A DNA stretch of 64,000 bases from Phalacrocorax aristotelis (taxonomy: Eukaryota > Chordata > Aves > Suliformes > Phalacrocoracidae): the NCBI RefSeq assembly GCF_949628215.1, contig NC_134282.1, forward strand, positions 18,456,723-18,520,722, read 5' to 3'. The notes beneath the pieces were generated by a model, which saw nothing but the letters and a program-made list of their open reading frames with translations, was not told the DNA's origin and did no database searches. Position 1 is the stretch's first letter; each line of letters opens with the position of its first letter. Below are positions 16,844-36,579 of the stretch, piece by piece. The position numbers and the translations under genes were made by a program.

Positions 16844-17703
16844 TCCCCCCCCCCTCTAGTCGCCGCGCCAGTGCCCCGTTACCCCGCGGCAGGGAGGAAA
16901 GGGGGGCGCAGGGGTGGCCCCGGTACCCGCGGGGGGTGTCTGACGCCCGGTGTAGCGGCAGGCTGCGAAGGGGGGAGTGCGGGGAAGCGCCCGGTGCGTG
17001 CCAAGCCTTGAGCTCAGGAAAAGGTGGGGGGTGGGGGAGAGGGTCGGCGAGGCGGCTCTGGGTGGGTGTTTTCAATTGTAAAATAAGCAAATGGGTGGGA
17101 ACCCCGCATTTCTGCGCGGCGGCGGCGGCCGGTACTCCCGGCGGGCTGGGCTGGCCGCCGCTCCCCCGGGGGCGGCCGGCTGTTGTTGTTGTTGTGGCAC
17201 AAAACGGAGTTTCCACTGCGCTAAAGACGGGGCGCCGGTTGCGCTGGGGGAACACGGGTTATGCCGGCGGGGCCAGGCCCGGGGCTCCCCGGTACCACCT
17301 GCCCGCTCCGGCACCTCCGGGCACCGTTCCCCGGGCGCGGGGGACCGGGGTGCGGGGGGGAGAGGACAGCGCCAGTTCTCCCGCGTTACTATTATTATTT
17401 TTAACTCGTATTATTTTTTCCTTCCCTCCGCGGGCGTGCGCGCACGCCTCCCGCCCCTCGGCGGGCATGCGGCGGGGGACCGGGGGGGCGGATGGGGGAA
17501 GCTCCTCTCTCCCTCCCGCCGCCTGGCGGGGCGGGGCGGGGGCGGAGGCAGCACGAAGGGAGGGGAAGGAAAGGGGGCGGGACTCCACCGCCCACCGCCC
17601 CGCGCCTCGCCCACGCTGAGACCGGGCCCGAACTCATCGCCGCAGTGTCGGCGCCGCCGGCTCCTGCCTCTTTAAGCGGCCGTGCCCATTGTTTGAGCCG
17701 CGG

Positions 17704-17786
17704 CCAATGGGAGCGGGCGGCCGCGGCGCGCGCGACCAATGGGCGCGGCGCGGGGCAGCGCGCGCGCCGCCCCCGGCTCTATAAGA
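17704..17786 (+). promoter_or_regulatory. PTMA: PTMA core promoter (two CCAAT boxes and TATA box)
   Basis: Two forward CCAAT boxes at 17704 to 17708 and 17736 to 17740 lie 32 bp apart, the spacing favoured by NF-Y. A TATA element, TATAAGA, is at 17780 to 17786. Initiation is expected about 25 to 30 bp further on, near 17810, giving a 5'UTR of roughly 100 nt before the ATG at 17906. The surroundings are rich in GGGCGG-type Sp1 boxes. A YY1-like GCCATCTTGG lies in the 5'UTR at 17828 to 17837. Start site inferred, not observed. Confidence 0.85.
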
Positions 17787-17905
17787 GGGGCCGTGGCGCC
17801 GCGTGAGTCCCCACTGGCTCGCGCAAAGCCATCTTGGCATTGTTCTGCTCGCGCCGCCGCCTGCGCCGCCGCCACAGCCCCGCCACAGCCCCGCACGCCC
17901 CCGCC

Positions 17906-17950
17906 ATGTCCGACGCGGCCGTGGACACCAGCGCCGAGATCTCCGCCAAG
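17906..17950 (+). CDS. PTMA: PTMA coding exon 1 (residues 1 to 15)
   Basis: It encodes MSDAAVDTSAEISAK and ends in AAG followed by the donor GTGAGC, phase 0. Ser2 is expected to become the acetylated N-terminus after Met removal. Relative to the mammalian thymosin alpha-1 segment as I recall it, Ala10 and the SAK at 13 to 15 are substitutions. Confidence 0.98.
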
Positions 17951-20900
17951 GTGAGCCGCCGCCCTGCCCCGCCCCGCGCAGCCCCCTCCCCGCGCTTTTT
18001 TTTTCCCCGCTATATTTTTTTTTTCCCGAGCGGTTTTTTTTTTTTTCATTTTTGTATCATTTTCCCCTTTTAAAAAATGTTTTCCCCCTTTTCCCCCCGC
18101 CTTCCCACCCCCTCCTTCTCCACCGAAGTTCGCGGCGGGGTTCGGCGCGGAGCCGCCGCGTTCGCCGTGCGGAGGTGCCTGCGCCGTTTCTTTGTCTACA
18201 GCGTGCGGGAAAACGTGCTCGCCGCCCCTCGCCGGTGTTGCGAACCCCGCCGTGCCGCGCCGGGCTCTGCGGCCCGCTCCCTCCTGCCTTTCCCTGGGAC
18301 CTCGGCGGCGGTCCCGGGGCCGTCCCGGGGAGTGCGGGGAGGGGGGGTGGGGGGGGTGGGAGTAGGGGTTGCGCCTCAGCACTAGTCCCCGGCGGGGGGA
18401 TGGCGGCGGCGGGCAGCGCTCGCCTCATTCAATCCGCCGCGGGAGCTTGACAGCACCGTCAAACTTGGGTCCCGCTTGACCCCGTCCCTGCGAGAGGGAG
18501 CGCTCCGTAGCATGCACCGGGGCGGGGGGGAGCGGTGTGTGTTGTGGAGTTCCTCCCGAAAAAGGGGGGGGGGGTGGGGTGGCGGTTGGTGTCTTGGAGT
18601 TGCACCCGGTTGATGCGGGGAGGGGAAATTTGGGGGTTTGCTGTGCTGGTGTTACCCGCGGAGGAAGCGGGGGGCAGTTGCTATTTCGGAGTTGCCCCCC
18701 CACCCCCCGGAAGGGTTGGGGGGGTCGGCAGTTGCTGTGCCGGCGCTGCCCCGGATGGGGGTGGGGAGGGGGTGTTTGGTGTTTGCTGCTATTTCGGAGT
18801 CGCCCCCGGAGGCGGGAAGGGGGGCGGTTGCTATTTTCGGAGTTGCCCCGGCGGGGGCAGCCCCCGCGGCCCCGGGGCTGGCGGCTCCGGGCCGAGCTCC
18901 CTGCACCGCGATAACTTTGGGAGCCGGTACCGGGGGTGATGGGAAGCGGTTGGGGAGCGCCGGTACTGACCGGGAGAGGCTCTCCCGGGCGTCCCCCGTT
19001 GCGGCTCCCGGCGCCCGCCTTTGTCTGCCGGTGGCGGCGGAGCGTCCCCCCTTTGGGGGGGGGGGGGCGCCGGGCAGCCGGGCGGGCTGCGCTCCCCGCC
19101 GGGCCGTGGGCGGCGATGCGCCCCGCGGCCGCCGTAGGGTCCTCCCGCCGCCGTCGGGAAAGTTGTGGGGGGACCCGGCTGGGAGCGGAGGGATGCGTGG
19201 GAAGGCGGGAGCGGGGCGCCGCTCCTCACTCTGCGCCACGGCCGGCAGCGGGTCCCGCCGCTCCCGGGGTAAGCGGTGCTGGGGGGGTGGGGGGAATGAA
19301 CCGACGGGGAAGGAGGGCTTACGAAAAAACAACCAACAAAACGCCGTTTCTGGCAGATTTCGATTTCACTTCTGTTTCCCGCTCCCGCAGCCGTACCCCC
19401 CTCCCCCCCCGCCTCCGTTCCGGGGCCGCGGCTTGGTCCCCGGTTCTACAGGAGCCGGGAAGCGGCGCGGCGGGTCGTTCCCATCCCTCCCCGGGGGAAC
19501 GAGGCCAAGTTCGCCGTTAACCTTCCCCTGCCCTTTACCGAGCGGGGGAAGGGGGCCTCGTCCCCGGCTCGGCCTCCCAGGGGGATGGGGCGGGACACCG
19601 GGGTCCGCGAAGCGGGCGGGGGGCGCGCATGGCGGCAAGGTGACACACACACCCCCACACACCCCCACCCCCCCGCACACGCGGCCGTGGGGGTGATCGC
19701 GGAGGCACCGGGGCCGTTCGCCCTCGTCCCGCCTTCCTGTCCGGAGCGCTCCTAGGAGGGGAGAGAAGGCGGGGGGGGGGGGGGGTGCCCCGCCCCGCCC
19801 CGCCCGGGCGGTGGCTCCGCGCCGAGCGCCGCCCCCGACCGCCGCCGCGCCGAGCCGTGGGGCGCCCACCACGTGCGGACTGCCCGCGCCGCCCCCTGGG
19901 AACCGGAGTCCGCTGTGCTCCCTTCCCCCCCCGGGACTACATTTCCCGGCATCCCGCGGGGCGCTGGGGCCCGGCGCGCTGGCGGGCGGCCAATGAGAGT
20001 GGCGCGTAGAGTGGCGCGCGGTTTGAACGGCGGCTGAGCGCGTGGCGGCGCGGGGGGGCCCCCTGCCGGCGGCGGCGGCGCGTTCTCTGCTGATCCCCGG
20101 TGGACGCGGGTCCTTGCCGGGGTGGTGGGCACGGGCGGGGGTGGTTCCCAGCCCTTCCCACCAGGATCTAGGCCTCTGCCGCGGGCTCTCCCTGCTAGGA
20201 GCTGCGGCTGCACCGTGTGGTTGTTGCACTTGCACCAGGAGTTGCAGCAGCGCTGGCACTCGCGCCCCGGGAGCAGTGAAGGTAGAGGTTTCCGGGCAGT
20301 TGGTGTATGACTAAACACCATCGCTATTTTATGGACAAACAGCCTTGCCACACCTATAATTAGAGGCTCTGTCAAAACTTTGGAGCTAAAGTAGTCCTGC
20401 TGCACGGACTCCTGGTTTGGAGGCTGCTGTACACATCTGTCTGTTTGTATTGGACCAGGCCTGGGGAAAGGGAGAAGTTGTGGTCCTTTCTGCAACCCTG
20501 TTGCTAGCACAAACTTCATGACCTGGCATCCTGATGGTCGTTAAACTGAGAGCGTCTTCAGTGGTGTGGGAAAGGTCAGTGCTGGAGATCTGTCCAGCTA
20601 AAATCCCTAAGAATGAGTTGTTCCTTCACCAGGAGAATTGCTTACATTTTGTGAAGGACTTTTCTTTTTTTTAAAGAACCATGGGGCTTAGTGAGATGTG
20701 GAAAGTCTGACTGCTTGATTTGCTCTGTGTCTAACTTAAGAATTGCTTCGTTGCCCTCATGCCCATTTGCCTGACAGAAGGCAGCGGCTGCAGAACGCAG
20801 CAGGGCAGTGGTGTGCGAGAGGTTAAATGGTTGTGATTGTCCTCCAGGGATTAGGGGAGCGGGAGCTGCTGACGGTGTAAAACTGGTGTGACTGGGCAGT

Positions 20901-23900
20901 GTGGAGGAGATGGCCTGGGATTCATATGTGAGCAGTGAAAGAAGGAGAGAGCTTGTGTTTTGGTTCACCCCAGACTTGTGGGATGCTCATTTGGTTAGGT
21001 GAGCTTCGATCAACAGGTGCAGCTGCCCCAAAGCTTGCCTGCAAGGAAAGGTTTTCCCCGGTACACTGGTGGCCAGGGTGCCTGTGGTAGCAGTGTCTCT
21101 GTGTGCCCACCTGAGTGGTTTGAATAAGCTGGTGGTCTAAAACCCCTGCACTGTCCCATCTAAGTGGCCTGCAGGGTAGTAAACCCTTCCTGAAACAGCA
21201 ATGGTCACGCTAGCGGGGCCAGGGCCATGCTCCTGCCCACCATGAGGAAGTGACAGTGGCTCAGCAGGAGTGAAAGTGCCTGCTCACTGCAGGCTGTGAA
21301 GCAGCCGCAAAGGGCAGGCAGGAGGGAGGAGAAGCTGCTTGCCGCTGCTGCTGCAGCAAAGTGGGGAGCTGCCAGCAACTTCTAAACACCTCGTGGTCGT
21401 GGCTGAAGCCGGCTGTGTGGCTGTGCTCCTGGCCCTGGGGAAGGGCCTCTCTGCTTTCCTTGGCTGGGGTAACAGTCCTTGTGCTGAAGGATCTCGCTCC
21501 AGCTGATGGAGGAACAGAAGGGGAGGAGGATGAAAGCAGAGATGCCAGTGTTATATCCAAGTGTTCTTTATGCAGGAACATAAAGTTGGATCCTCTTAGC
21601 CTGTTTGCTGAGCGACTTGGCATGACATTTTGACAGTGATCAATAGCAAAAACACACAAGCTCCCGCTCTGCTTGCGGTGGAGAGTTGAACTGAACTAGC
21701 CAGGCACAGCTCTTGGAGCAGTGTAAAAATAGACTTCTTCCCCCACCCCATCCTGTTACGCTTAAAGCTGCAAGCTGGATCCTGGAGTCTCCTTTCTGCT
21801 GCTGTGAGAAAGACCAGGCATGTAGTATTTGCTGTATGCCCATGCAGGGCAGAGACTGCGGTCTCTGCTAATGAGTCCCTGGGATTTGTTCCTGCTGCGA
21901 AGGTACCAAGCAGCTGTGGATGTCCGCAGCCCTGGGGCGGCAGAGCCCATACGTTGGATGGGGCTGCTGGCTCTCTGTGGCTTTGCAGGAGCTTGCGTGG
22001 ACGGTGCTAAGATGGGCAATCAGCCAGCTCTGCTGCTGTTGAGCATGTGCAGACGGCCAGCTCTGTGTTTGGGAGCTCAGAGGTGAAACAGAGCAGTCTC
22101 TTTTTTAGATAGCTGCTCTCTGGCAAGGCTGACTTGGATTGAGATTCACCCCCACACTTTCCCATTCCCAAGGAGGAGCCAGAATGTGGTGAGCAAATCG
22201 GTGTGAAGAGAAACCAGCTTCCGTGCTCTCTTGGACTGTGTGTTTTCACACCTGATCTGCAGCTTCTCTGACCCAGGCACCTGGAATCAGGTGAATTCTC
22301 TGCTTTTCTGCTCCTTCCAGGATCTAAAAGAGAAGAAGGAAGTTGTTGAAGAAACAGAAAATGGCAGAGACGCACCGGCCAACGGCAATGCTGTGAGTAT
22401 GGCTACAATCTGCAGGGAGAGGCAGCCCATACGCCAATGTCTTTTTATTTTCCTCCCCATTCTTGCACTTGCTGTGAGCTTGTCCCCAGCCTTGCCTGAG
22501 AAGGGGCCTGTCCAAATGGCAGCGCTGTGCTGTGCGGAGCCCTCAAGCCTTTGGGGCCTCAGGTTCAATAGATGCTCTTGAGCCTGTGGGCAGTTCATGT
22601 GTAGGCAGAAAGGAAGGGCTGGGCTTGGATCCCCTCCCCAAAGGCTATATCCAGTGCCGCCTCCTTCCTAGGCATTGGAAAAGGAGAGAAAAAAAAACCC
22701 TACAAACCCTAGATTTACAGTGTTACAATCAGTTGAGCGGGGAAACACATTGTGTACAAGTAAACCGGTTGGTTTCCTATTTTTAACATGCTTGGGGAAA
22801 TTCACTCTGCTGTGTTTCAAAGTGTTGCAAGAGCCCTTGCAGTCTTTGTCTTGGCCTCAAGGCTGCAGCCCTGAATTACTCCAGACTTGATCCTTTGTGC
22901 TGGGGCTGCCTGTGTCCTGCGGAGGCAGGCAGGATGTGTGCCTGGGGCTCTGCTGGCCTGGTGCTTTGCTTTAGGCAGGAAAGGTGGAGGTGCCCACTTG
23001 TGCTGAATATCTTTTCTCCCTTCTCCCTTCCCTGGTGCAATTTTTTTTAAGTGATATTTTGTCTTGCCAAGGAGAACGAGGAAAACGGAGAGCAGGAGGC
23101 TGACAACGAAGTAGACGAAGAGGAAGAGGAAGGTGGTGAGGAAGAGGACGAGGAGGAAGAGGGTGATGGTAACTTCCTTTGTTCCCCCTGCCCCCATCCC
23201 ACGGCTGCGTCCTGCCTTGGACAGCAGACTCCTGGGAAGCAGAGGAGAGCAGAGAGCAGCATCTCCCCCTTGCGGCTGCAGCTGAGCCACTCTCACCAGC
23301 CAGGCTCAGCCCTTCTTGCTCGCCTGGGCTGCTGGTGCTGGGAGTGAAGTCAGCCTTGAATCCCTTCCAGCAGGTTGAGGGCAGATTCCTTCCTTCCTCC
23401 TCTGGCCAGACGGCACTGTACCGCGGCGCTGAATAAGCGCATTAGCCCTTCTGTGCGAGTAGTAAAACCTGCCCTTGACTCTTGTGATTGCAAGGGCTGC
23501 CGCAGATGTGAGTGCCGGCTGGTGGGACAGGGACAACCCTGGATGGCCATGCTGTGTCAAGAGGGGTAGGTCACAGTCGTTCATGGAGCAGCAGGCTCAG
23601 AGGCTGATGTGGTCCCCTCTGCCAACCCTTTCCCAGACCAGATGCCATGTGGAAGGGGGCAGGGGAGCCTGCAGCTCTTCCCCGCTCCTCCAACGGGAGT
23701 GAACAGGCTTGCTCTGAACCTTGCCTGCCTGCAGTGTCCTGAGTCTCCCTGCTCTCTCCTGTTTCCTGACCTGACCCAGCCTGGAAGTGGGTTTTGGCAG
23801 CAGCAACCAGAAATCCAGCAGTGACTTGCCGAATCACTTCTCACCCTCCCTGCTATTATTTTTTTTTTTTACCAAGATCTACTTGGATGAATAACATTGT

Positions 23901-26310
23901 TTATTTTTATCTCTCGTTAAGGCTGAGAGAAAATCATTCTTGTTATTCTGAAGTGAACCCAGGGCCCTTGATTAGCTGTTACTAGGTTAATCCCCTGTGA
24001 ATTTTCAGTTTACGTGCTGACCTACTAACCTCTTGGTTAGTTTTAGGAGACAGGGACAGGGCTGGAAATTTAATGACCATTAGGCCAGTGCTTATTCAGA
24101 CAGTATAAGCAGGGAAGGCTGCCTCCTTTGGGATAGCTCTCTGCTCTCAGCAGCCTGCTGTCTCCCATGCCCTCTGGTAGGAACTGTCTCACTAGGGAAA
24201 AACTGGGAATTGTGGCTCTGTTCATACTTGGGATTTTAACCCTTGAGGTCAGAGCACAGTGCTGCCATGTGCTGTATTGAGCCCATCTACCTCCAGCCTT
24301 GCTTCAGGGTGAAAGAGGCGGGGATACTTGTTCTCTCCCTGCTCCCTTTGGGCAGGAGGGAGATGCATGTGCGGCAGGGGCGTGTGTGCAGGGTGGAAGT
24401 GTTGCTTAGACACTGCTGTGACAAGCCTGGGGAGCTTTGGTCCTGCAGTCCTAGTCCTGGCTTGCTGAGTGCAGGCACAATTTGGCATGCCGTGCTTGGA
24501 GGCGTGAATGCCTTGCTGGGATCCTGCATGGACTCTGTCTGTCCATGCCTGGTGCCCTCGGGTGTTCCCTGCCTGAGAGCTGCACCTGAGCAGTTGAACG
24601 CTGTGGGAGAGAGATTGAAAGGCCATGAATGCAGCTTGCATCAGCTTTTTTTTTCCCAATGCTTGCGGCCAAACTCTATCCTGGAGTCTGACAGCAGAGG
24701 GGAGAGCTTGAGGGTATATTTTTCTCACCCTTCTCCCCATCCCATCTCATTATTTGCTTTGCTTAAAGCAGCTCAAAGAACTAAAAATGCTCCCAATCAG
24801 CTTGCTGCTGTCACCTGACCTGCCAACCAGCCTGGTGCATGTGATGGCTGCTGGGGCATTGATCCATTGCTGGGAGCTAATCTTGGCCTTTCCTGCCACA
24901 TGGGCCATGCTGCGGCTGGGCACACGCCAGGGGGAGGGGAGGATGGGCTGACCTTAATCCCCCCTGGCTGTCTATACGTGTGGCTTGTGGCAGTGGGTTT
25001 AAAGCCAGCTTACTGGCCTTAACACTCTAAGTTTTAGTAGGGTCTCCTGTTACACAAGAGACTTCTCTTGGCAGCTGAGAGGTGGTTGCTCCTCTGGGGC
25101 CTCCAGACTTGCCCCTGACCCCCCCAAAACTGGCCAAAGGGGATGGACTAGGTCGTTCTCATCCACTGGCCTATTTGAGCCCAAAGTGGGTCAAGCCCAG
25201 AGCTCTCTGCTCAGCCTCCTCTCTGGCTGTAAGATAAGTTGGTAGCATTTGTTTGCTGTTCTGATAATTAGAAAGTGTTCTGACTCAGAACTAATGCATT
25301 CTGGCTCTCTTAACTCATTAAAGATGGGCTAATAGCTGCGAAGGGAAGCAGAAGTAATCTGGAGCGGTTAGGCAGAGCAGCCACTAGAGTGAGTTTTTTC
25401 CTCTCCCTACCCCCCCACCCCGCACCTTTTTGCTGTGATTTCAGCACTTGTGGTAAGTGCTGGTTTTGCTGTTCCATTGCCCGCACTACAAATGCGGTGT
25501 GAGCCAGACTTAATGCAGCCAATCTGATTTCCCCTTTGGTGGGTCAGGTCAGTTGGGGGATGCCCTGAAAGCCCCCATGTCCTTAGGTACCTGTAGCACT
25601 GAGCAGGGGCTGTGCTACCTGGGGAGATGGGCGGGACACTGGACACTGCAGTGTGGGGCTGAGCCAGAAATGAACCCACAGCAGAGGTGCATGGTGCTGT
25701 AATGCCCTGAGAGAGTCTCACATTCTTCTCTATGCAGGTGAGGAAGAGGACGGTGATGAAGATGATGAAGCTGAGGGAGCCACAGGCAAACGGGCAGCTG
25801 AGGACGACGAGGTAGGAAAAGCAACAAGCCCCTTGGAGCTGCCCGTGTTCCCAGAGGGCTTGGGGAGGGTGTCAGCGGGGCTGGTGCAGCCAGGCTGGGC
25901 TCTGGGACTGGAATGCCCTGCCTGTGCATTTCCTGTGCCTCTTTGGGGACACAGCCCAGTTCTGTTTATATGCTGGCCTGGTTAGAGGGGTGTCTGCTCT
26001 GGCTGCATGGAGGCACTGGCCCTGGGTTGGGGAGCCCCAGCGTGCCCATGGTGGGTCAGGGTGAGGTGCCTGGGAGCTCCCCGAGCTTGCTGCAAGAGAG
26101 GATTTACACGATGGAGGGAGCAAACACTTGTGTTGCTCTGTCTGTCCCTGAGGTGGGAGAGGGACCCAAAAACCCTCTTCTGCCTCACTCTGCCTGCCGT
26201 GGTGTGGCTCCCAGAAGCCCTGCTCCCTGTCCCCTCTCATGACGGCTTTTCTTTCCCCCCAGGACGATGACGTCGATCCCAAGAAGCAGAAAACTGATGA
26301 AGATGACTAG
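17906..26310 (+). CDS. PTMA: Prothymosin alpha, complete, five coding exons
   Basis: Joining 17906..17950, 22321..22392, 23072..23168, 25738..25811 and 26263..26310 gives an uninterrupted 111-codon frame ending in TAG. All introns are GT-AG with compatible phases (0, 0, 1, 0). The protein has the prothymosin layout. Residues 2 to 29 correspond to thymosin alpha-1, with the DLKEKKEVVEE stretch at 16 to 26. An NEENGEQE segment at 41 to 48 corresponds to the region reported to bind KEAP1. A run of Glu/Asp covers about 50 to 84, then GKRAAEDDEDDDVD and a basic KKQK at 103 to 106, part of the nuclear signal, before TDEDD. Prothymosin is a disordered, highly acidic nuclear protein that binds histone H1, is tied to proliferation, and inhibits the apoptosome. 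The ATG has G at -3 and is the only Met, so the start is firm. Oddity: Pro102 directly follows the DDVD caspase motif. Confidence 0.98.
18533..18860 (+). repeat. Diverged GC-rich minisatellite in PTMA intron 1
   Basis: Seven imperfect units start near 18533, 18583, 18635, 18675, 18729, 18780 and 18825, so the period is about 40 to 54 bp. The clearest shared core is GTTGCTATTTCGGAGTTGCC followed by a C-run and then a G-run of variable length. Units 4, 6 and 7 match the core best; units 1 to 3 and 5 are more diverged. Each unit carries a G-run of four or more, so the coding strand could form G-quadruplexes. Confidence 0.7.
19870..19875. promoter_or_regulatory. PTMA: CACGTG E-box in PTMA intron 1
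   Basis: A perfect palindromic CACGTG lies about 2 kb downstream of the predicted start, in CpG-rich sequence. In human PTMA, MYC/MAX regulation has been reported through an E-box in the first intron, with AP-2 sites close by. Here GCCCCCTGGG, an AP-2-like match, follows within about 25 bp. The positional match supports conserved control, but binding is inferred. Confidence 0.6.
19936..20027 (+). promoter_or_regulatory. Second promoter-like cluster (ZNF143-like, CCAAT, CDE/CHR) in intron 1
   Basis: Three elements lie within 92 bp. ACTACATTTCCCGGCATCC at 19936 to 19954 closely resembles the ZNF143/SBS consensus. A forward CCAAT is at 19990 to 19994. GGCGC, a 4-nt spacer and TTTGAA (20013 to 20027) form the CDE/CHR arrangement of G2/M promoters; two GAGTGGCGCG-like E2F-type repeats precede it. 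This combination is characteristic of TATA-less cell-cycle promoters, with initiation expected near 20040 to 20070 on the + strand. PTMA exons 2 to 5 contain no ATG, so a transcript starting here would need an upstream start codon to be coding. Confidence 0.55.
22321..22392 (+). CDS. PTMA: PTMA coding exon 2 (residues 16 to 39)
   Basis: It encodes the amphipathic DLKEKKEVVEETENGRDAPA segment and then NGNA, with acceptor CTTCCAG and donor GTGAGT, phase 0 at both ends. It contains most of the thymosin alpha-1 peptide. The asparaginyl cleavage that releases that peptide in mammals would fall after Asn29. Confidence 0.97.
22393..23071 (+). other. PTMA: PTMA intron 2
   Basis: A 679-bp intron from GTGAGT to GCCAAG. 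Apart from the tandem acceptor at its 3' end, nothing was recognised in it. Confidence 0.95.
23072..23168 (+). CDS. PTMA: PTMA coding exon 3 (residues 40 to 72, acidic core)
   Basis: It encodes ENEENGEQEADNEVD and then a Glu/Asp/Gly run, and ends in phase 1 with the donor GTAACT. The acceptor is a tandem AAGGAG (23069 to 23074), so splicing may start at 23072, including Glu40, or at 23075, omitting it. The NEENGE motif is the analogue of the KEAP1-binding ETGE type. Confidence 0.97.
23169..25737 (+). other. PTMA: PTMA intron 3
   Basis: A 2.57-kb intron from GTAACT to TATGCAG. It contains T-rich tracts at 23.86 and 24.64 kb. I recognise no repeat family, small RNA gene or extra exon in it. 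Confidence 0.95.
25738..25811 (+). CDS. PTMA: PTMA coding exon 4 (residues 72 to 96)
   Basis: Its first two bases complete Gly72. It then encodes EEEDGDEDDEAEGATGKRAA and EDDE, and ends in phase 0 before GTAGGA. GKRAA at 88 to 92 provides the first basic element of the bipartite nuclear signal. Confidence 0.97.
26263..26310 (+). CDS. PTMA: PTMA coding exon 5 (residues 97 to 111 and stop)
   Basis: It encodes DDDVDPKKQKTDEDD and then TAG. The acceptor follows a strong pyrimidine tract ending CCCCCCAG. KKQK is the second basic element of the nuclear signal. Mammalian PTMA has Thr after DDVD as I recall it; this gene has CCC (Pro) at 26278 to 26280. Confidence 0.98.
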   Translation, partial: DDDVDPKKQKTDEDD

Positions 26311-26832: not shown

Positions 26833-27094
26833 ACAAAAGCTTGTAAAAAAATTAAAAAAAAAAAAGACAAAAATGCAAAAAAAAAAAATTTACAATCTTA
26901 TTCTGAGCATTCCAGTAACTTTTTTTTGTGTATGTACTTTAGCTGTACCATAGATTGTGGTTTGTATGAGGTGGCAAGGCCAAAGATAAAAAGGTTTTCT
27001 TTTTTTTTTTCTGTCTATGAAGTTGCTGTTTATTTTTATTCTTTTTCTTTTTTTTTGGCCTGTTTGATGTATGTGTGAAACAATGTTGTCCAAC

Positions 27095-27100
27095 AATAAA
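27095..27100 (+). terminator. PTMA: Distal (main) poly(A) signal of PTMA
   Basis: AATAAA within CAACAATAAACCGG, followed by a T-rich stretch and TTGCTGAGTTG. The context closely resembles the 3' end of mammalian PTMA, so cleavage near 27115 is expected. Confidence 0.9.
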
Positions 27101-29496
27101 CCGGAATTTTATTTTGCTGAGTTGTCCTAACAAGGCTGCCTCCCAACTGCTGCTTTTGGTTTTAGTTTTAATTTGTTTTAGTGTTTTATTTCTTTCTACC
27201 CTTCTTTCTTTCCTTCCTTTCTTTGCTTTGGACTTGGGCTGGGAAGAAAGATGGAGAGAGGTTGGAGGGGTGCAGGGTGTCGATTGGGGAGGGTCTGGAG
27301 GCTATGGTCCCAGCTGGTGACAGCACGGTAGGGCTGTGCCACCCAATCCCCTGTGCTGCCGATGTCAGGGCAGGTAAGCCAGGGTTGGTCTCATGGCTGT
27401 GAGAGCTGCAAATGTGCCCCCAGCATGGCCTCTGCATGATCCTGCATGCTCTGCCTGCTCTTGGGGAGTGGTGGGAGAGGTTAGACTGAGGAACCATAGG
27501 AGATAAAGGCACAGTGAAAGTGAGCTGGGGTGTGTGAGTATTGGGGGGCTCAGCAGTCCTGCTGCCCCTCTGCAGTCAGACTTGTTGGGGACTCTTTGGC
27601 TGGTGCAGTGGGGATGAGAAACCTGCCCCAAAAATCCTTCCTTGCAATGTCTTGTGGGTGGGTGACCCTCCAGTTGTGAGATGGTGGGTGCTGAGGCTGT
27701 GTAAATGTCTCCCCTTCCTTTGGGCTGCATGAGGCAGCCTGGGGCTTGTTTACGGCATTGCTGGCAGCAGGGTAGGATGCGTGCTGGAGGAGGCAGTGTT
27801 CAGCAGGGATTTAATTCAGCCACAACTGGTCCCTGAGGGATGCTCCAGACTGCACTGGCCACCCAGTGATTTCTGGGGTGCCAAGTTACCAGAGGTTTGG
27901 TGGTGGGACTGTGGGAGGCAGGCTGAAGTTTGTCTGTCTGCTTTAAGTGAACCAAAAATGCTGTAACTTAGCATAGACCTTTGCTGCTTTGCTCCTAACC
28001 TTCCTCCCAACTAATTTTTCCTCCCTCTAGGGCATTGGAGCTCAGAATAGCTCAGCCTGCTCTGCCAGGTGTTTGGAGACCTCTTTGCAGGAACCTGCCT
28101 TGTCTCAATCTATGCCTCCCAAACCTTTGCCCCAGCTCTGGCAAGTCCCCTTTCCCCTGCTGACTGGGCCCATTGCCGAAGCCCTGCCAGAAGGTCTTGT
28201 TTTCTCCTATTGCGCTGCAATCCTGGCAGTCAGAGCTGAGATGCTGGGGGGTGATTTTTTTTTTTTTTTTGTTTTTTTTGTTTTTAAAGAAGAGGAACCG
28301 TTGTGCATGTAATGTGGTGGCTGTGAGGGTCACAGGTCCTGATCCCTGGGAACAGCCAGGTCACTTACTCTGTATTTACACTGGTGGCAAATAAGCTCAA
28401 AATCTGACTCCTTGTCCTTAATTATCCAACTAATCGTGGTGCTAGCTGATAGCTTATCAGATTTACTGCCTTGATTCACAGGCCATATCCAACCCTGGCT
28501 CTTGGCTGCCTGGGTGATGGGGTGCTTGCGGCAGGGCTGGAGGCCAGTGCTAGATTTGATTAGCGGGTGCACTGATGTCCCCAATGGGATGTGACAACAT
28601 GGGAGCAGCAAACAACGCTGCTGAGTGTCATTGGACGGCTGGGTGGTGCTTTGTTGTGCAGCATCAGGAGCCATGCCCATCTCCCTGCCGCAGCTGCCCC
28701 GCACATGGCTCTGATGATGTGCGATTTGAGCTGGTGCTTGCACATTTGTGAGGCAAATTACTCAAGTGTCTGTGGCAGAGAGGAGCCGGTGAGAGCAGGC
28801 TCTGCATGTCACTGAAATGGGGATCCTGCAGGCACAGCTGGTGTGAGGACCCTGGAGGAGATTTTGGGGGACCATTGGCCTTACTGCCCCCCCACTTCAG
28901 AGCAGGACCCTTCCTACAGCCTGCAGCCCCCCAAAACCTGAGGGTCTTGGGTAGTAGGCTCCTCTTCGGTCTGGGATTCGGGGTGTGGGGTAAAACTGGA
29001 GGCTACCCCTGACCTCCTAGCCAGATGGGCTGGCAATGGGTAGGGCACAGAGCAGCCAGGGGTGAGGAGAGGACAGGCTGGGGGAGCCCCCAACCTCACA
29101 GCCCCTGGTTCTCATTGGGCTGCCATGAGCCCTGCAGCTGCTGGCAATGGAGAGGCCAAGCCCAGGTCCCTTGCCTCCAGCTGTGTGGGGCAGCACCCAT
29201 GTTTCTGCACCCTGTTTCTACCCCCTCTGGGTACCAACCTGCAGTCATGGCTGGGTTCTGGAGGCTCTGGCAGCCCCCTGCCTCCTCATGCCCCCTGGGT
29301 GTGCTCCCATGGCTTCAGTGCAGAGAGGACAGGCACTGCTCTGGGCATGGAGTATGGTAGGGACAGGCTGGTCCTGGCACTGGGGGCTGAGACCCATCAC
29401 AGCTCAGTGCATGGGCCACAGCAGGGAGCCCCTCCCCAGCCCCACTGCATAGCTACCCAGCTCCAGCAATCCCTGTGCACCAGCACAGCCTACCAG

Positions 29497-29793
29497 CCAA
29501 TCCCATACTGCCACCTGTCCCTCCCTTCCCACCTCCACCTCCCTCCCTCCCTCGTGCTGCCTCCACCAACCACAATGAAGCAACATCCAGGCCTGGCCAA
29601 TCCCAATATGCCACCTGGCTCATTCCCCCCAGCCAATCACACACCGCCACCTGTCTCTGCTGCTGTTTCACCCTTCACAGCAGCAGCTCTCCAATCGCAG
29701 GGTGAGGGAGACTGCTCTGAGCCAATCTGGAGCTGCCACCTGTCAGCTGCCCCAGCCAATCAGGGGCAGCCATACCTCATCGAGGGGTATAAA
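29497..29793 (+). promoter_or_regulatory. CCAAT/E-box tandem array ending in a TATA box (orphan promoter)
   Basis: Forward CCAAT boxes start at 29497, 29597, 29603, 29633, 29691, 29722 and 29756. Four of them (29497, 29597, 29633, 29722) are followed by CACCTG at exactly +15. The 29756 copy has a decayed CATACC at +15. TATAAA lies at 29788 to 29793, 32 bp after the last CCAAT start, a normal promoter geometry predicting a start near 29820 on the + strand. CCAAT binds NF-Y; CACCTG is an E-box that bHLH, SNAI or ZEB factors can bind. No recognisable gene follows, so the product is unknown, perhaps a noncoding RNA or a lineage-specific gene. Confidence 0.65.
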
Positions 29794-32700
29794 GGCCCCT
29801 CACGGCTGGGTCTTGGCTTGGCTTCTTCTGAGGTGGGGGTAATTGTTGTCTGAAAGAGCCTCCTACCTGGTGGGTCCTGGGGAGATGTAGGCTTGAAGGT
29901 GGTTCTTTGTCTCATTTGGTACCTGATGACACGCAGAGCTTTCTGGGTGATCTGAAACGCTACAAGGATTGCTCGCCTGGATGATGCTTTGGGATGATGG
30001 GAACCAGGAACAGCAGGTTCCCCTTCAGCACAAGAGGGCTTGCAGGAGTTGTGCTAGCTGAAGGCACCTCTGAGGATGTCTCAGAAATGGTTCACCTCGT
30101 GAGCTGGCCTTGTGCTGGGGGCTGCTGCTGGGACCTGGGAAGTCCCACCTGCTCCTGGCATGCAGAAGATGGTCTCCATGCCACCACCTGCTGACTAGAG
30201 CCAGGCTCCATGGGGGACTGGTGGTGCGGGACTGGAGGTGAAGAGCATGTGGCCATTGGGTGCTGTGGCACTGGGTCCCTCACCCAGGGTTTAACAGGTA
30301 GTGTGTTCAGCTGCAACCTGTGGAGCAGAAGTACTGCTTGTGCTGCCCCTTGCCTGCGGATATGACCCATGCATCATGGGCAACTTGATTCCTGGTTGGA
30401 CTGCTGATCGTACTGGTCCTGGAGACTGTGGAGGTGAAGGTCTGAAGCTGTTCTGGGATGCAGTAGCTGACTGCTGACTACCAAAGATAGCCACTGGGAG
30501 GGCTGCAGGGTGCCTTGTAAAAGCCTGGAAAGACTTAGGCTCTGCTAATGTGCCCCAGGTGGCCACTTGGACCAAAGGTGGCCCTTCCCAAGAACCTTGC
30601 TGTGGCTGGGCCTCAGGTGGCACAGTGGTGTCCTGTATGTGGCTGAACAGCCAGGTGAATTGAGAGCACCTTGCCTGTGGTTGGCCTGAAATGCAATGCA
30701 CTGGTGGAGCCATGCTACAAAGGTCATGGCCAGTGTAACCAGTGGGGCTGAGCCCATGTCCTGTGGGCACCTGGAGTAGGTATGGACCAGCAGACCTATC
30801 TCCAGTCCTGACCTCCAGCCCACAGTTGGTTAGGACCTATTTCTTCAGCTCAAGCCTGTCCTGCACCAGCTGTACCTTTCAGTCAGCCTCATCCAAAACT
30901 ACTCTTGTTGTATCTTGACAACCTTCATGAAATTTGGAGCACCTTCATGGCTCAGTAGAGAACCTGCCTGTGGGACATGCAGGACTTGGACTCCAAACCA
31001 GACATGGGCTGGGGGTACTGGTGCAGTTTCTGTCTGGGCGAATAATTGGCATCTACCTGAGAGTATGATGAGTGAAACTGCCTTCCAGGCATGGTTCCTC
31101 AAGGTCACAAACACATTAAATAAGACACAAGGAGCTGTTCCTCTGACAGAGCAATTATCATCTGGCTCAGGGTGAGAGGTGTCCTGGGGGAGCAGACCCC
31201 TTGGAGCAGGCTGGGGAAGCCTGGGGCCCTTGGCTGGTCTTGGCCCATCCCATGTGGCAGAAATGTGCCTCCAAAGCGGTGCAGGGATGTCTCTGTGCTT
31301 GCTCTGAGAGCTGTCTGGTGCAGGCAGGAAAGCCCAGCCCATGCTGAAGAGCAGAGGTGGGAGAGCTGATTCCTTCCTTGTCCCTGGCTGCCACGTGCCC
31401 CATGACCCATCCGCCTTGGTGAGCTGGGGCAGCTCTGGTCCTGGATAACTGACCTGGCAGTCCCCAGCCCAGTGGAGGTCCTCAAGATCTGAAACCCAGC
31501 TGGATGCTAATCCCTGCTGCCAGCTCTCCTTGGGGCCACCACCCTTCTTCCCTGCTCCAGGGCAGCAGCCTCAGGGAAGAAGCAGAGCTGGGATGCTTGT
31601 GGCTCCTCCTGTACAGACACTGGGAATCCTCCATCCTTCCCTGTGCTGATGGCTGCTCCCTCTTGTCCAGCTGACCTGATTCTCTCTGGAGGGTGGGGGA
31701 GCAGGAGGAAGGGCTCTGGGGGACCCTCAGCTTTGCATACCCCAAGAAGGGCCATGGCTCCTGTCCACGGCTGTCTGGGGAGCATCAGAGCAGTAGGGGA
31801 CAGCTGGGGGTGGTGGGGCTTAGAGGACACCCCTGTAGTACCACACTATGTGTGATCCAGAAAGAGACCTGGGAAGAAACAGTGAGCACCATGCTTTGGA
31901 GCAGATTGGGACCTGGAGAGGGTCTTGCATCCCTTTCCTAAGAATGCAGTGCAAGTGGGGCAGCTGGGAGGTGTGAAAGTTCAATGCTGTTAGCCCCTGG
32001 AGAATCCACAGAGATGGAGACCTCATAGTGTAAACCCACAGGGATGGGGTCTCTGCTTGTGTCCATTGCTGTCTAGGAGGGAGGCCTGAATGCAAGGGGC
32101 TCTGCCTCACCCTGCCTGCCAGGCAGGGATGTGGGTCCTCCTGCTCGCTGCGGGCACCATTCTGGCCCCCTCTCCTTTGCTGCAGGCAAAGTGAGCTCCC
32201 AGCCCTGGTCTTTCAGGGAGCTGGAAAGCAGCACCCCTCTTTCATGACGTGGGGTAGTGGGGTGCAAGGGGTGATGCAGCTTGTGCCCAAAACTGGAGGC
32301 CCAGATGCTCGGCTGGTGCATGACCTGTGGGCAATGCTGAGGAGGACAGCCTGTAGCAAGTGTGAGCCACCCACTGCCTGGCTGGCAGCCTGGGAACTGC
32401 CAGCCCCCTGATCTGCTGGCAGGGAAGGGATGTGGCTTCAAATTGCCTGGCAGGGAGCATGGTCCTACGTGGGGCCGGGGAGCCTGCCGAGCCTGCCTAG
32501 GGTTGGCTCTGCCACCATGCAAGGCCCCAAAGGCAGCATGAGGGCTCAGAGCAGCTCCTGGCTGCTGTGGGGTGCACCCTCCCCACAGGGATGGGTGCAG
32601 AGCCAGCAGCCCAGGCTCCTGGTGAGCCAAAGCCCAGCCAGTGCAAGGGCTGGCTCCCTATCCTGGGACAAATGCCCCTTAGCCCTGCTTATCCCCCCAA

Positions 32701-35700
32701 GGTGGGGATGTGCTGCTTCCCTGGGGACGCACCCTAGCGCAAAGGCCCATCCCCAGAACAGACTGTGGGAGCAAGGCTGCAACTCTGGGGCGTTGTCCCT
32801 GGCGGGGTGAGCAGTGGGCAGGAACTGGGCTTTGGGGTTCTGCTGTGGGAAGGGGCAAGCAGGGGGCACCGTACCCCAAGCAGGCACTGGAGCTTCTGTT
32901 CCCTGACCCTGTGCTGCACCATGGCAGGCTGTTCCCTGGTGGGGGTTGGGGGCTGTGTTTGGCTGTGGGGAGCCCTGCTGGGCTGTTAGCTGTGGCTTCT
33001 CCTGCATCCCCCAACTTGGCAGGGTTAGGGCTGAAAGAGGGCTGAAGGCAGGTGTGAGGCGCAGAGGTGTCAGTGCTTGCGGGAGGTGTTGGGACACCTC
33101 CCCTGGCTGTGGTAGCAGCCCTAGTCCTAATCCTGTGCCCGTCGGTGTCCTGGGGGCTCCTGGCTGGCACCGGACTTGGCCTGTCCAGCCCAGTGCAAGA
33201 GCTGCTCCTCTCTTGGGGCGGAGCGGGTGGCACGTCCCGCCCTGGGTGGCAGAGCAGCCGATATGGTGTGGGGCTGGTCGGCCCAGGTTGGCCTTCGGCG
33301 GCGGTCCCGGGATCCGCAGCTGACGCGGTGACCCAAGGCAGCTCAGGCACCGGCGCTATGGAGGCGCTCTGCAGTCCAGCGCGGTATTGCTGTATTGCAG
33401 CACCATCTAGTGCCGTGGGATGGGGAAGACCGGCACCCCACCGCTCCCCTCGAGAGCTGTGGCAGCACCGTGGAGACAGGGTCCCCACGTGTCCAAGGGT
33501 CGTGCCGCCACGGCTGCCCTGCCAGGAAAACCAAACAGGCTGTGGGGATGGGGATGAATGGGCATCACAGCGTGTCCTCTGGCCTGGGGCAGCACTATCC
33601 CTGCCGTGCCCCTGCTCTGTGCCAGGGAGTTTCCTGCAATGATCCTGGAAAGCATCAAGGGGCACAGACTTTCCCAGGTCCTGAGCTAAATGCATCTGGC
33701 CTCAGCTGCCAGTTTTGCCACCTTCTCCTACTAAATCGGGCCTTGCACTCCCCTCTGACCACTTTTGCTTCTCTATCAGGCAGATGACCCAACTCTTTGA
33801 GTCACTTGCTGTCTGGGTCTTCATCGCTCCCTTGGCTTCCTCCTGCATCCCTGGTTGTTTCTTGGTGTCTGCCATAGCCAGTATGAGTGTGAGCCCTTCA
33901 CAGACTTGTCGCTGTTCCCCTTTTGCACACCCAGAGCAACACGAGCCCTTTCCAGCCCAGCTTTTTGGACACTGGGAGAGCTTTCTGCAGCACCATCCTG
34001 CCATCTGCTCCTCCCCTTACATCCTGTCCCCTCTCAGCCCATGGTCCCTCCTGGGTGCCTGTCATGCTCCCGGGTGCTGGGAAAGCAGGCAGGATTTTGG
34101 CAGAGCTGTATCCCATAGGAATGGGCTGCTCTGCAAGAGGGGCCGTGGTGATGGCTGGCCCTACTCCCCTCCCATGCCAGGGAAAGCCAGTGGGGGAAGT
34201 CACCGTGGATGTGGATGTCACACATGCAGTGGGGCGAGGCGGGCACTGAGACCCAACAAGGATTGCACCCAGGTCCCATGGCACTGAGGGCTGGTGGCCA
34301 GGGGCTCCCTAGGTCAAGAGGAATTGGGGACCTTGGTCTGAAAAGGGGCCCTTTGGGTCCTGTCTCTGTCCCAGCTGCCCTCCTGTCTTTGGGGATGGAT
34401 GAGAAGGCACCAAAGTCACCTGGCAGCCCTGAGATCCCTGTGTCTGGCTGGCTTGATGTCTGGCTTGGGCTCTGCCCACACTGTCCCAGCAACCCAGGAG
34501 CAGGCTCTCTTCCCCCAAAAGGGGACAGAGGGATCTGAACCTGCCCAACCCTCCTGTCCCCCTCCCAGAGCCCCTGGAGGAGGATGGAGTCGCTGGCCCC
34601 ACAGGCTGCCTGCCGCTGCCATGTGCTGCCTGCACCTGCATGAAGGTAAGAGTAGCAAATCAGCCACCGAACATAATGTGGCCCTGGGCTGTTTGTGCAC
34701 CTTTTGTTTGCCGGTAGCCTTCATGAATCAGCTAATTATCCACATTAGGATGGCTCTGATCCCCAGCCTGAGCTTTATTGGGCAGGGCAGATCCGGGGCA
34801 GCGTGCCAGCGGGAGCCCCAGTCAGTTTTGCTGGGCAGTCAGGCAGCTGAAAGCTGCCAGGGAAGGCACCTGGGCAGCAACTGGGGAAGGTAACACCCTG
34901 GTGGAGTGCTGGCGATGGGCAGTGAGGGTGAGAGAGGCCGGTGCTTGCTAGGGGGCCCTGTCACCCATCTCCCCCGTCGCAGCATGGAGGTGAGAGCCTG
35001 ATGCACCTGGGGTTACATTCCCACGTCACAGTGAGCCCTGAGTCCCATCAATGGGTGTTTTCCATTGCCATAAGGCATGCCTGTGCCTTGGGGAGCCTAT
35101 ACAGATGGCTGGAGAGGGGCTGGGTGTGATGGACCCCAAAACCAAGCAGAGACCTCAGCCAAACGCATGTTGTTCATCACCCTCCTCCTGTGCTGCCTTG
35201 GCTGCTTTTACCCAGCGGCTCTGCAACACCCTGGCTTGGAGGGCTCCCAGACAAAGACATGGCTGAAGGGCATTGGGGATGAAGTTTTCTTTTTACAAGC
35301 TTCACCCCAAACCTACCTCTGACAGCCCTCCAGGGCTGCACGTGGCCCCAGATCTTGCCTGCTTCTCCCTCCCTCCTTTTTCTGCACCTCTCTGGCTGCA
35401 TGTCTGGGATATGCAGGGCCGCCCTGCCCTTGCCATCAGGTTTCTGCAGGCTTCCGGGGCAGCTCGCAGCCCTCCTGGCGTGGGGGGCGAGCCCTGCATG
35501 GCAGCCATCCGGATAGCAAGGAGCAGCCTCCTGAGCACGTTCCCTGCCCTGAGGCTCTTGCAGAAACAAATGCCCTCTGCATGCTGGCAGCTGGAAGGCA
35601 TTCGTGCCCGTCACAGGAGCTGCCAAGGCCAAAACACCCCAACTGTGAACAATGAGCTGGGGGAAGCTGTGGCTGTTGGCTGGGATTCACCCACGGTGGC

Positions 35701-36520
35701 TGCTGCTGCTGATTCCAGCCAGTTCCCTCTCCCGGACACCGCTCGGCAGCAGGGCCAGATAAGCCGGGGTTTTTGCGAGCAGCTGGGCTCTGGGAAGGGC
35801 CCTGCATGGCAAGAGGCACCTTGCCTGGCCCAGCCAAGTCCTGCCCCCCAAAACCGCCCATCTGGCCACCATGGAGCCCTTTCACCAAGTGGAGCCCAGT
35901 GTGGTCCAGGCTGGGGGTGGTTTCCCTGCCCCGGAGATGCCTGCCAGGGCTGTGTGTTTCCAGGTGGGAAATTCTGTGGTAAATAAAAGGGGGAGCCACT
36001 ACGTTGCTCCCCACTCCCAGTGCTCCCGCCACCTGACTGTGCAGAGGCTGGTGTGAGGCTGCCATGGCCAGAGCCACCCCTAGGCACATGGACAGGTGGT
36101 GGCAGAGGTGACGCACACCCCCAGGGCCTCCTGCCCTGCCCCTGCCCTTTCCAGCCCCATTTTTCCCTTTGCTGGGGCCTTTGCTTACCCAGCTGCCACA
36201 GGCGAGAGAACCAACTGCTGCCCATGCCATGCTTGAGCCCTGGGGATGGGACATGCTGAGGGCAGCACTGTGGCGGTGTCTCCTGCCCCTTCTCCCAAGG
36301 CTCCCAAATCCCCACCAGCCCCATGGGGAGGGGACCCACCGCTGCTCCTGCCTGGGCCAAGGGTGGGCTCCTGCTCCGAGCACCCAGGGACCCTTTGCCT
36401 GTGTTTTGAATGGTGTCTGGTCAGACCACCCTGCTCCCCCCGCCCTACCGGGGCCTTTCTGCCGGCTGGGTCAGGCCCCTGCGCCTTCGGTTTTTAAGGG
36501 AGGCCGAGCCCCGCACTGGG

Positions 36521-36579
36521 GGATGCTGGGCGGGACTGGTGGATGCTGGGGGGGACTGGTGGATGCTGGGGGGACTGGT
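36521..36579. repeat. 20-bp tandem repeat, three copies
   Basis: Three consecutive units of GGATGCTGGGSGGGACTGGT, the last one base shorter. They lie just before a CpG-rich patch (36.62 to 36.75 kb). The CTGGG/ACTGG composition resembles GC-rich minisatellites common in bird genomes. Confidence 0.8.

Follow-up and report, generated by a model that had tools for sequence, protein, structure and literature searches.

The window (the whole 64-kb stretch of DNA that was analysed) carries two recognisable genes. Using human proteins as tblastn queries, we placed the exons of PTMA on the + strand at 17906-26307 and those of PDE6D on the − strand from 46999 down to 38598; the first 17 residues of PDE6D and the greater part of the acidic central region of PTMA were left unmatched. 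Given this exon placement, the array described here sits between convergent genes, which bears out the earlier note in assigning it to the PTMA-PDE6D gap. The surrounding DNA is CpG-starved: in 500-bp bins across 27001-33000, the observed/expected CpG ratio is 0.00-0.24 at a GC content of 0.47-0.65, which suggests long germ-line methylation. The ratio is 0.00 in the bins 29001-29500 and 30501-31000. The intergenic gap also holds an imperfect 20-bp tandem repeat of 3.3 copies at 36515-36579. The CpG-rich PTMA promoter (17681-17910) has two CCAAT boxes of its own (17704 and 17736), 32 bp apart, with TATAAG 44 bp past the second by hand count, and its module differs from that of the array at 29.5 kb. 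The parts of the array and the features predicted downstream of it are as follows.

29496 to 29517, + strand: module 1, GCCAATC-N7-GCCACCTG, 15 of 15 core bases
29596 to 29617, + strand: module 2, GCCAATC-N7-GCCACCTG, 15 of 15 core bases
29632 to 29653, + strand: module 3, GCCAATC-N7-GCCACCTG, all 15 core bases, 87% identity with module 1 across 30 nt
29690 to 29696, + strand: lone CCAAT box (TCCAATC) with no partner site, 7 of 15 core bases
29721 to 29742, + strand: module 4, GCCAATC-N7-GCCACCTG, 15 of 15 core bases
29755 to 29772, + strand: half module 5, GCCAATC-N7-GCCA, lacking an E-box, with the CCAAT closest to the TATA box, 11 of 15 core bases
29788 to 29793, + strand: TATA box TATAAA in the context GGGGTATAAAGGCC, with no other TATA[A/T]A on that strand between 28001 and 32000
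29818 to 29822, + strand: transcription start zone predicted from the TATA distance
31115 to 31120, + strand: ATTAAA, possible poly(A) signal, the first ATTAAA/AATAAA on the + strand past the TATA box

Sites, polarity and spacing can be read directly from the sequence. The seven + strand CCAAT boxes start at 29497, 29597, 29603, 29633, 29691, 29722 and 29756 and span 264 bp, in agreement with the seven forward boxes in 265 bp counted earlier; the − strand has no CCAAT (ATTGG) in 29497-29793. CACCTG begins exactly 15 bp after the start of CCAAT at 29512, 29612, 29648 and 29737, again as had been claimed, with all four pairs embedded in the full module, and the remaining + strand CACCTG sites of 28.5-31.5 kb lie at 30146, 30185 and 30768. 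The TATAAA was likewise correctly placed 32 bp after the last CCAAT, start to start and on the same strand; in the window, GGTATAAAGG is found a single time per strand. One detail had to be given up, namely the degenerate E-box at +15 of the last copy, where the actual sequence is CATACC and not CANNTG. The 11/15 score of this half module is equalled at 16 other places in the window, with 12 at one further place, and the pattern GCCAATC-N7-GCCA, with its 11 fixed bases, is found five times when both strands of the 64 kb are counted, each time in the array. The boxes at 29603 and 29691 stand outside the module (6/15 and 7/15 core bases, respectively); the former is an extra CCAAT in the spacer of module 2, starting at the last base of the C run of the GCCAATC block. 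The consensus context for NF-Y is RRCCAATS, and [AG][AG]CCAAT[CG] fits five of the seven array boxes, out of 15 matches in the window with the two strands counted together.

The composite array is real and non-random, and has the layout of a promoter. The window contains 45 CCAAT on the + strand and 36 on the − strand; apart from stretches reaching into the cluster, no 265 bp of the 64 kb holds more than two on the same strand. Among same-strand CCAAT/CACCTG pairs no more than 60 bp apart on both strands of the 64 kb, the offset +15 appears four times and ten other offsets once each. The pattern CCAAT-N5..20-CACCTG was observed five times in the window, the fifth match (24793) having a different offset, against 1.23 on average, and never more than 4, in 100 shuffles of the window. 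When 29400-29850 was subjected to 20,000 dinucleotide shuffles, the CCAAT count reached at most 5, against 7 observed, and pairs sharing one offset (5-60) reached at most 1, against 4. The number of such four-copy sets expected from composition alone is 2e-9, an estimate that allows every quadruple of positions in 400 bp and any 15 of 22 columns. Outside the CCAAT itself, a scan of offsets −30 to +40 found that 6-mers at one fixed offset in four copies come solely from the GCCACCTG block.

Within the array, the data support the view that a two-part site with fixed spacing has been under selection. The four full copies agree in every one of the 15 core columns (identity 1.00), whereas the N7 spacer has a mean pairwise identity of 0.36 and the flanks reach 0.30-0.34 in two upstream and 0.31-0.38 in two downstream blocks, against a composition expectation of 0.28. 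Because the four copies were chosen for having both cores, the contrast between core and flank is partly built in, a choice that the 2e-9 estimate covers. An alignment of all seven CCAAT boxes, which involves no such choice, shows departures from composition at p < 0.02 (55 columns, without correction) in columns −1, 5, 13, 16, 21 and 22, but in none of the remaining columns of the right core. Conservation that is confined to the cores, with spacer and flanks averaging near chance, points to selected two-part sites as opposed to fresh duplications, and of the two explanations offered earlier, composite-site selection or partial duplication, the second is weakened. The accompanying statement that the sequence between modules is not conserved holds on average, but not for every pair: in addition to the close match of modules 1 and 3, modules 1 and 2 share 0.60 identity in the block 31-12 bp upstream. 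The spacers of modules 1 and 2 are 0.57 identical, a value reached in two of the six spacer pairs. Similarity of masked flanks gave a low p in two of ten segment pairs, of which A-B has p 0.03 (uncorrected, one of the 10 pairs) and B-C (p 0.003) was discarded as an artefact of a nine-base overlap between the segments. Flank similarity may be inflated by a pyrimidine-rich tract (CCTCC/CTCCC) that lies at 29518-29560, between modules 1 and 2. The identity data within the array all fit a local duplication that took place long ago, with later selection on the cores.

Several other readings of the region were considered. A structured or small RNA gene was rejected, given that no Rfam family matched the window at the gathering score and ARAGORN (bacterial code) found no tRNA or tmRNA; in a relaxed Rfam search of 29400-31600, five matches had E-values of 0.31-5, each far under the gathering score. 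A stop-free + strand frame of 269 aa (29044-29853) covers the whole array; the modules lie in two reading frames (phases 0, 1, 1, 0, 1), at variance with a coding repeat, and we therefore take this frame to be a chance occurrence. Its matches in PDB (E up to 1) are two distinct sequences, Pizza6-SH (E 0.0017) and 3fPizza6-SH (E 0.0041), a similarity that we attribute to low complexity. At a Pfam threshold of 0.01, the 60 stop-free + strand frames (29.79-38.7 kb, minimum length 48 codons) yielded 0 families, and the 48 − strand frames (27.3-38.05 kb, minimum length 65 codons) yielded TB (0.0027) and GSK-3_bind (0.0028), with one member each, which we regard as chance matches without a credible domain. 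Readings of the right half as a PTF1, T-box, CTCF, SREBP or NFI site were dropped on comparison by eye with the known motifs.

Taking into account the arrangement of these sites, we consider it slightly more probable than otherwise that 29.49-29.82 kb is an NF-Y-driven TATA promoter with a CACCTG-binding partner, which would direct transcription of the + strand from about 29820, probably into a noncoding RNA. All seven CCAAT boxes share the strand of the TATA box, which counts in favour of a promoter. Under the proposed mechanism, NF-Y would bind the CCAAT boxes, and in the four full modules a factor recognising CACCTG would sit just beyond it, the gap between CCAAT and CCACCTG being 9 bp. CACCTG is preferred by E-protein dimers, FIGLA-like proteins, Snail and ZEB, so that an E-protein/tissue bHLH dimer, a FIGLA-like bHLH protein or a Snail/ZEB zinc finger are candidate partners; because Snail and ZEB are repressors, the partner could act either way. 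We propose that the need to fit next to NF-Y on bent DNA dictates the position of this factor, so that NF-Y would hold it at a fixed phase. Half module 5 would serve as an ordinary CCAAT box 64 bp ahead of the predicted start, and the TATAAA would place that start at about 29820, from where an unannotated, probably noncoding RNA would run toward the 3' end of PDE6D.

A putative + strand transcript starting near 29820 would fit the layout of the TATA and CCAAT boxes; against it, no match to the initiator YYANWYY was found in 29806-29840. TATA promoters with restricted expression are known from CpG-poor DNA, and the interval 29490-29830, with five CpG and an observed/expected ratio of 0.19, is DNA of that kind; the putative promoter may be tissue-restricted. 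The same CpG depletion argues against germ-line activity of the putative promoter. Between 29815 and 31200, the longest ATG-initiated frame has 82 codons, and there is no strong 5' splice donor by matrix score, the best candidate being CAGGTGAAT at 30655 with 4.9 bits. Combined with the negative Rfam and Pfam results, this makes the putative transcript most likely noncoding. The lack of a strong donor and of any Pfam family in the 60 + strand frames also counts against the promoter reading. The + strand lacks AATAAA and ATTAAA from 29701 until the ATTAAA at 31115, which could, speculatively, be the poly(A) signal of an RNA of about 1.3 kb.

The array might instead be a distal enhancer or silencer of PTMA, PDE6D or a further gene, with a TATA box that is incidental or yields enhancer RNA only. 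Its placement in the gap between convergent genes would suit such an element, as would the lack of a recognised gene downstream in the Rfam and Pfam scans and the occupancy of distal sites by NF-Y reported in PMC11802806; nevertheless, the TATAAA makes this alternative unlikely, since its surroundings are GC-rich, its distance is the expected one, it shares the strand of all seven CCAAT boxes, and the + strand has no other TATA[A/T]A over 4 kb (28001-32000). We give rather less credence to a dead or neutral remnant, in which one promoter unit would have been locally duplicated a few times, with the functionless copies drifting apart. The 87% identity of modules 1 and 3 over 30 nt, the 0.60 identity of modules 1 and 2 in the upstream 20-bp block and the masked similarity of segments A and B are the traces that such a history would leave; drift, however, does not readily account for 15 invariant core columns set among spacers and flanks near chance on average, when 2e-9 sets are expected from composition even with a wide choice of positions and columns.

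A third possibility, which we consider very improbable, is a cluster of variant ERSEs, bound by NF-Y and ATF6/XBP1, in a stress-induced promoter. The ERSE is CCAAT-N9-CCACG, with the half-site once given as CCACG/A, in which NF-Y binds CCAAT and ATF6 binds CCACG, and multiple copies are usual (PMC5890977); CCAAT-N9-CCAC(C) shares this polarity, the 9-bp gap and the multi-copy habit. Yet all four full modules have CCACC, neither strand of the 64 kb has any match to CCAAT-N9-CCACG, ERSE-II or ERSE-III, the conserved block extends to CCACCTG, which an ERSE does not need, and a change of G to C is not CpG decay. Least probable of all, in our estimate, is derivation of the promoter from part of a transposable element or LTR. 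LTRs of the ERV9/LTR12 type do combine repeated CCAAT boxes with a TATA box, but blastn found no second copy of 29000-31500 in the window, the sole match being the internal one of module 1 to module 3, and the + strand has neither AATAAA nor ATTAAA between 29701 and 31115. The NF-Y-driven TATA promoter remains our preferred reading.

Comparison with known composite elements refines the original claim of a composite site, which stands as such but had overlooked both the ERSE geometry of CCAAT-N9-CCACC and the reversal of order relative to the known NF-Y/USF and NF-Y/MITF pairs. As in the ERSE described in PMC5890977, CCAAT comes first and is followed after a 9-bp gap by a 3' CCAC-type site used in multiple copies; in contrast to the ERSE, the fifth base of that site is C in 4/4 copies and the conserved block is a CACCTG E-box. 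The shared CCAAT-N9-CCA is present in the four full copies and the one half copy, whereas the CCACG/CCACA half-site is absent from all four full copies. The CCAAT-N9-CCACCTG unit is therefore ERSE-like in geometry, yet is not an ERSE. In GRP78, too, a TATA box lies downstream of the ERSE, as it does of the modules in this array.

The pairs formed by NF-Y with USF1, USF2 or MITF resemble the array in coupling a CCAAT box to an E-box at a fixed distance. The ENCODE positional catalogue, however, places the USF1/2 and MITF sites 10-12 bp 5' of CCAAT (PMC7793273, section 17), and PMC7046753 likewise has the E-box first, with CCAAT following at 17 or 18 bp, whereas the CACCTG of the array is 3' of CCAAT, at a start-to-start distance of +15 in 4/4 modules. 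Moreover, USF binds CACGTG according to PMC6238301, and the core here is CACCTG in 4/4. The array unit is not the known NF-Y/USF unit. PMC6238301 also describes NF-Y and USF promoter groups as almost mutually exclusive, which calls for caution in assuming cooperation between NF-Y and an E-box factor.

No description of a CCAAT-N9-CCACC(TG) array, or of a transcript in the PTMA-PDE6D gap, was found in open-access titles and the starts of abstracts, and neither CCAATN9CCACC nor CCAAT-N9-CCACC occurs as a literal string in the best 15 of 360 open-access literature matches. NF-Y tends to set the position of its partners. We tentatively suggest, while regarding the suggestion as doubtful, that CCAAT-N9-CCACCTG is a grammar unnamed in section 17 of PMC7793273, in which a CACCTG factor takes the ERSE position of ATF6 four times over and drives, in the PTMA-PDE6D gap, an RNA gene that is unannotated and lineage-restricted. 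If true, an exact 3' CACCTG at the ERSE distance would widen the grammar of NF-Y beyond the 5' bHLH partners USF1/2 and MITF given in that section, and a natural array of this kind would be a pointer to an unannotated transcript; if unconserved and silent, the array would be mere ornamented intergenic DNA.

Cell-cycle promoters of the cyclin B2/CDC25C type carry several CCAAT boxes about 31-36 bp apart and are not known to have a TATA box or a CACCTG partner. The array matches them in its intervals of 36, 31 and 34 bp and differs in its TATA box, its CACCTG sites and two further intervals of 58 and 100 bp. As far as the available text of PMC5663575 goes, the chicken GHR-AS-I6/CCDC152 promoter differs in being bidirectional and in having no repeated CCAAT/CACCTG unit noted, but it depends on NFYB, CCAAT and TATA, is said to have no CpG island and produces an antisense RNA in a bird. 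Promoters of the type proposed here therefore exist in birds, and the chicken promoter offers a precedent for the array.
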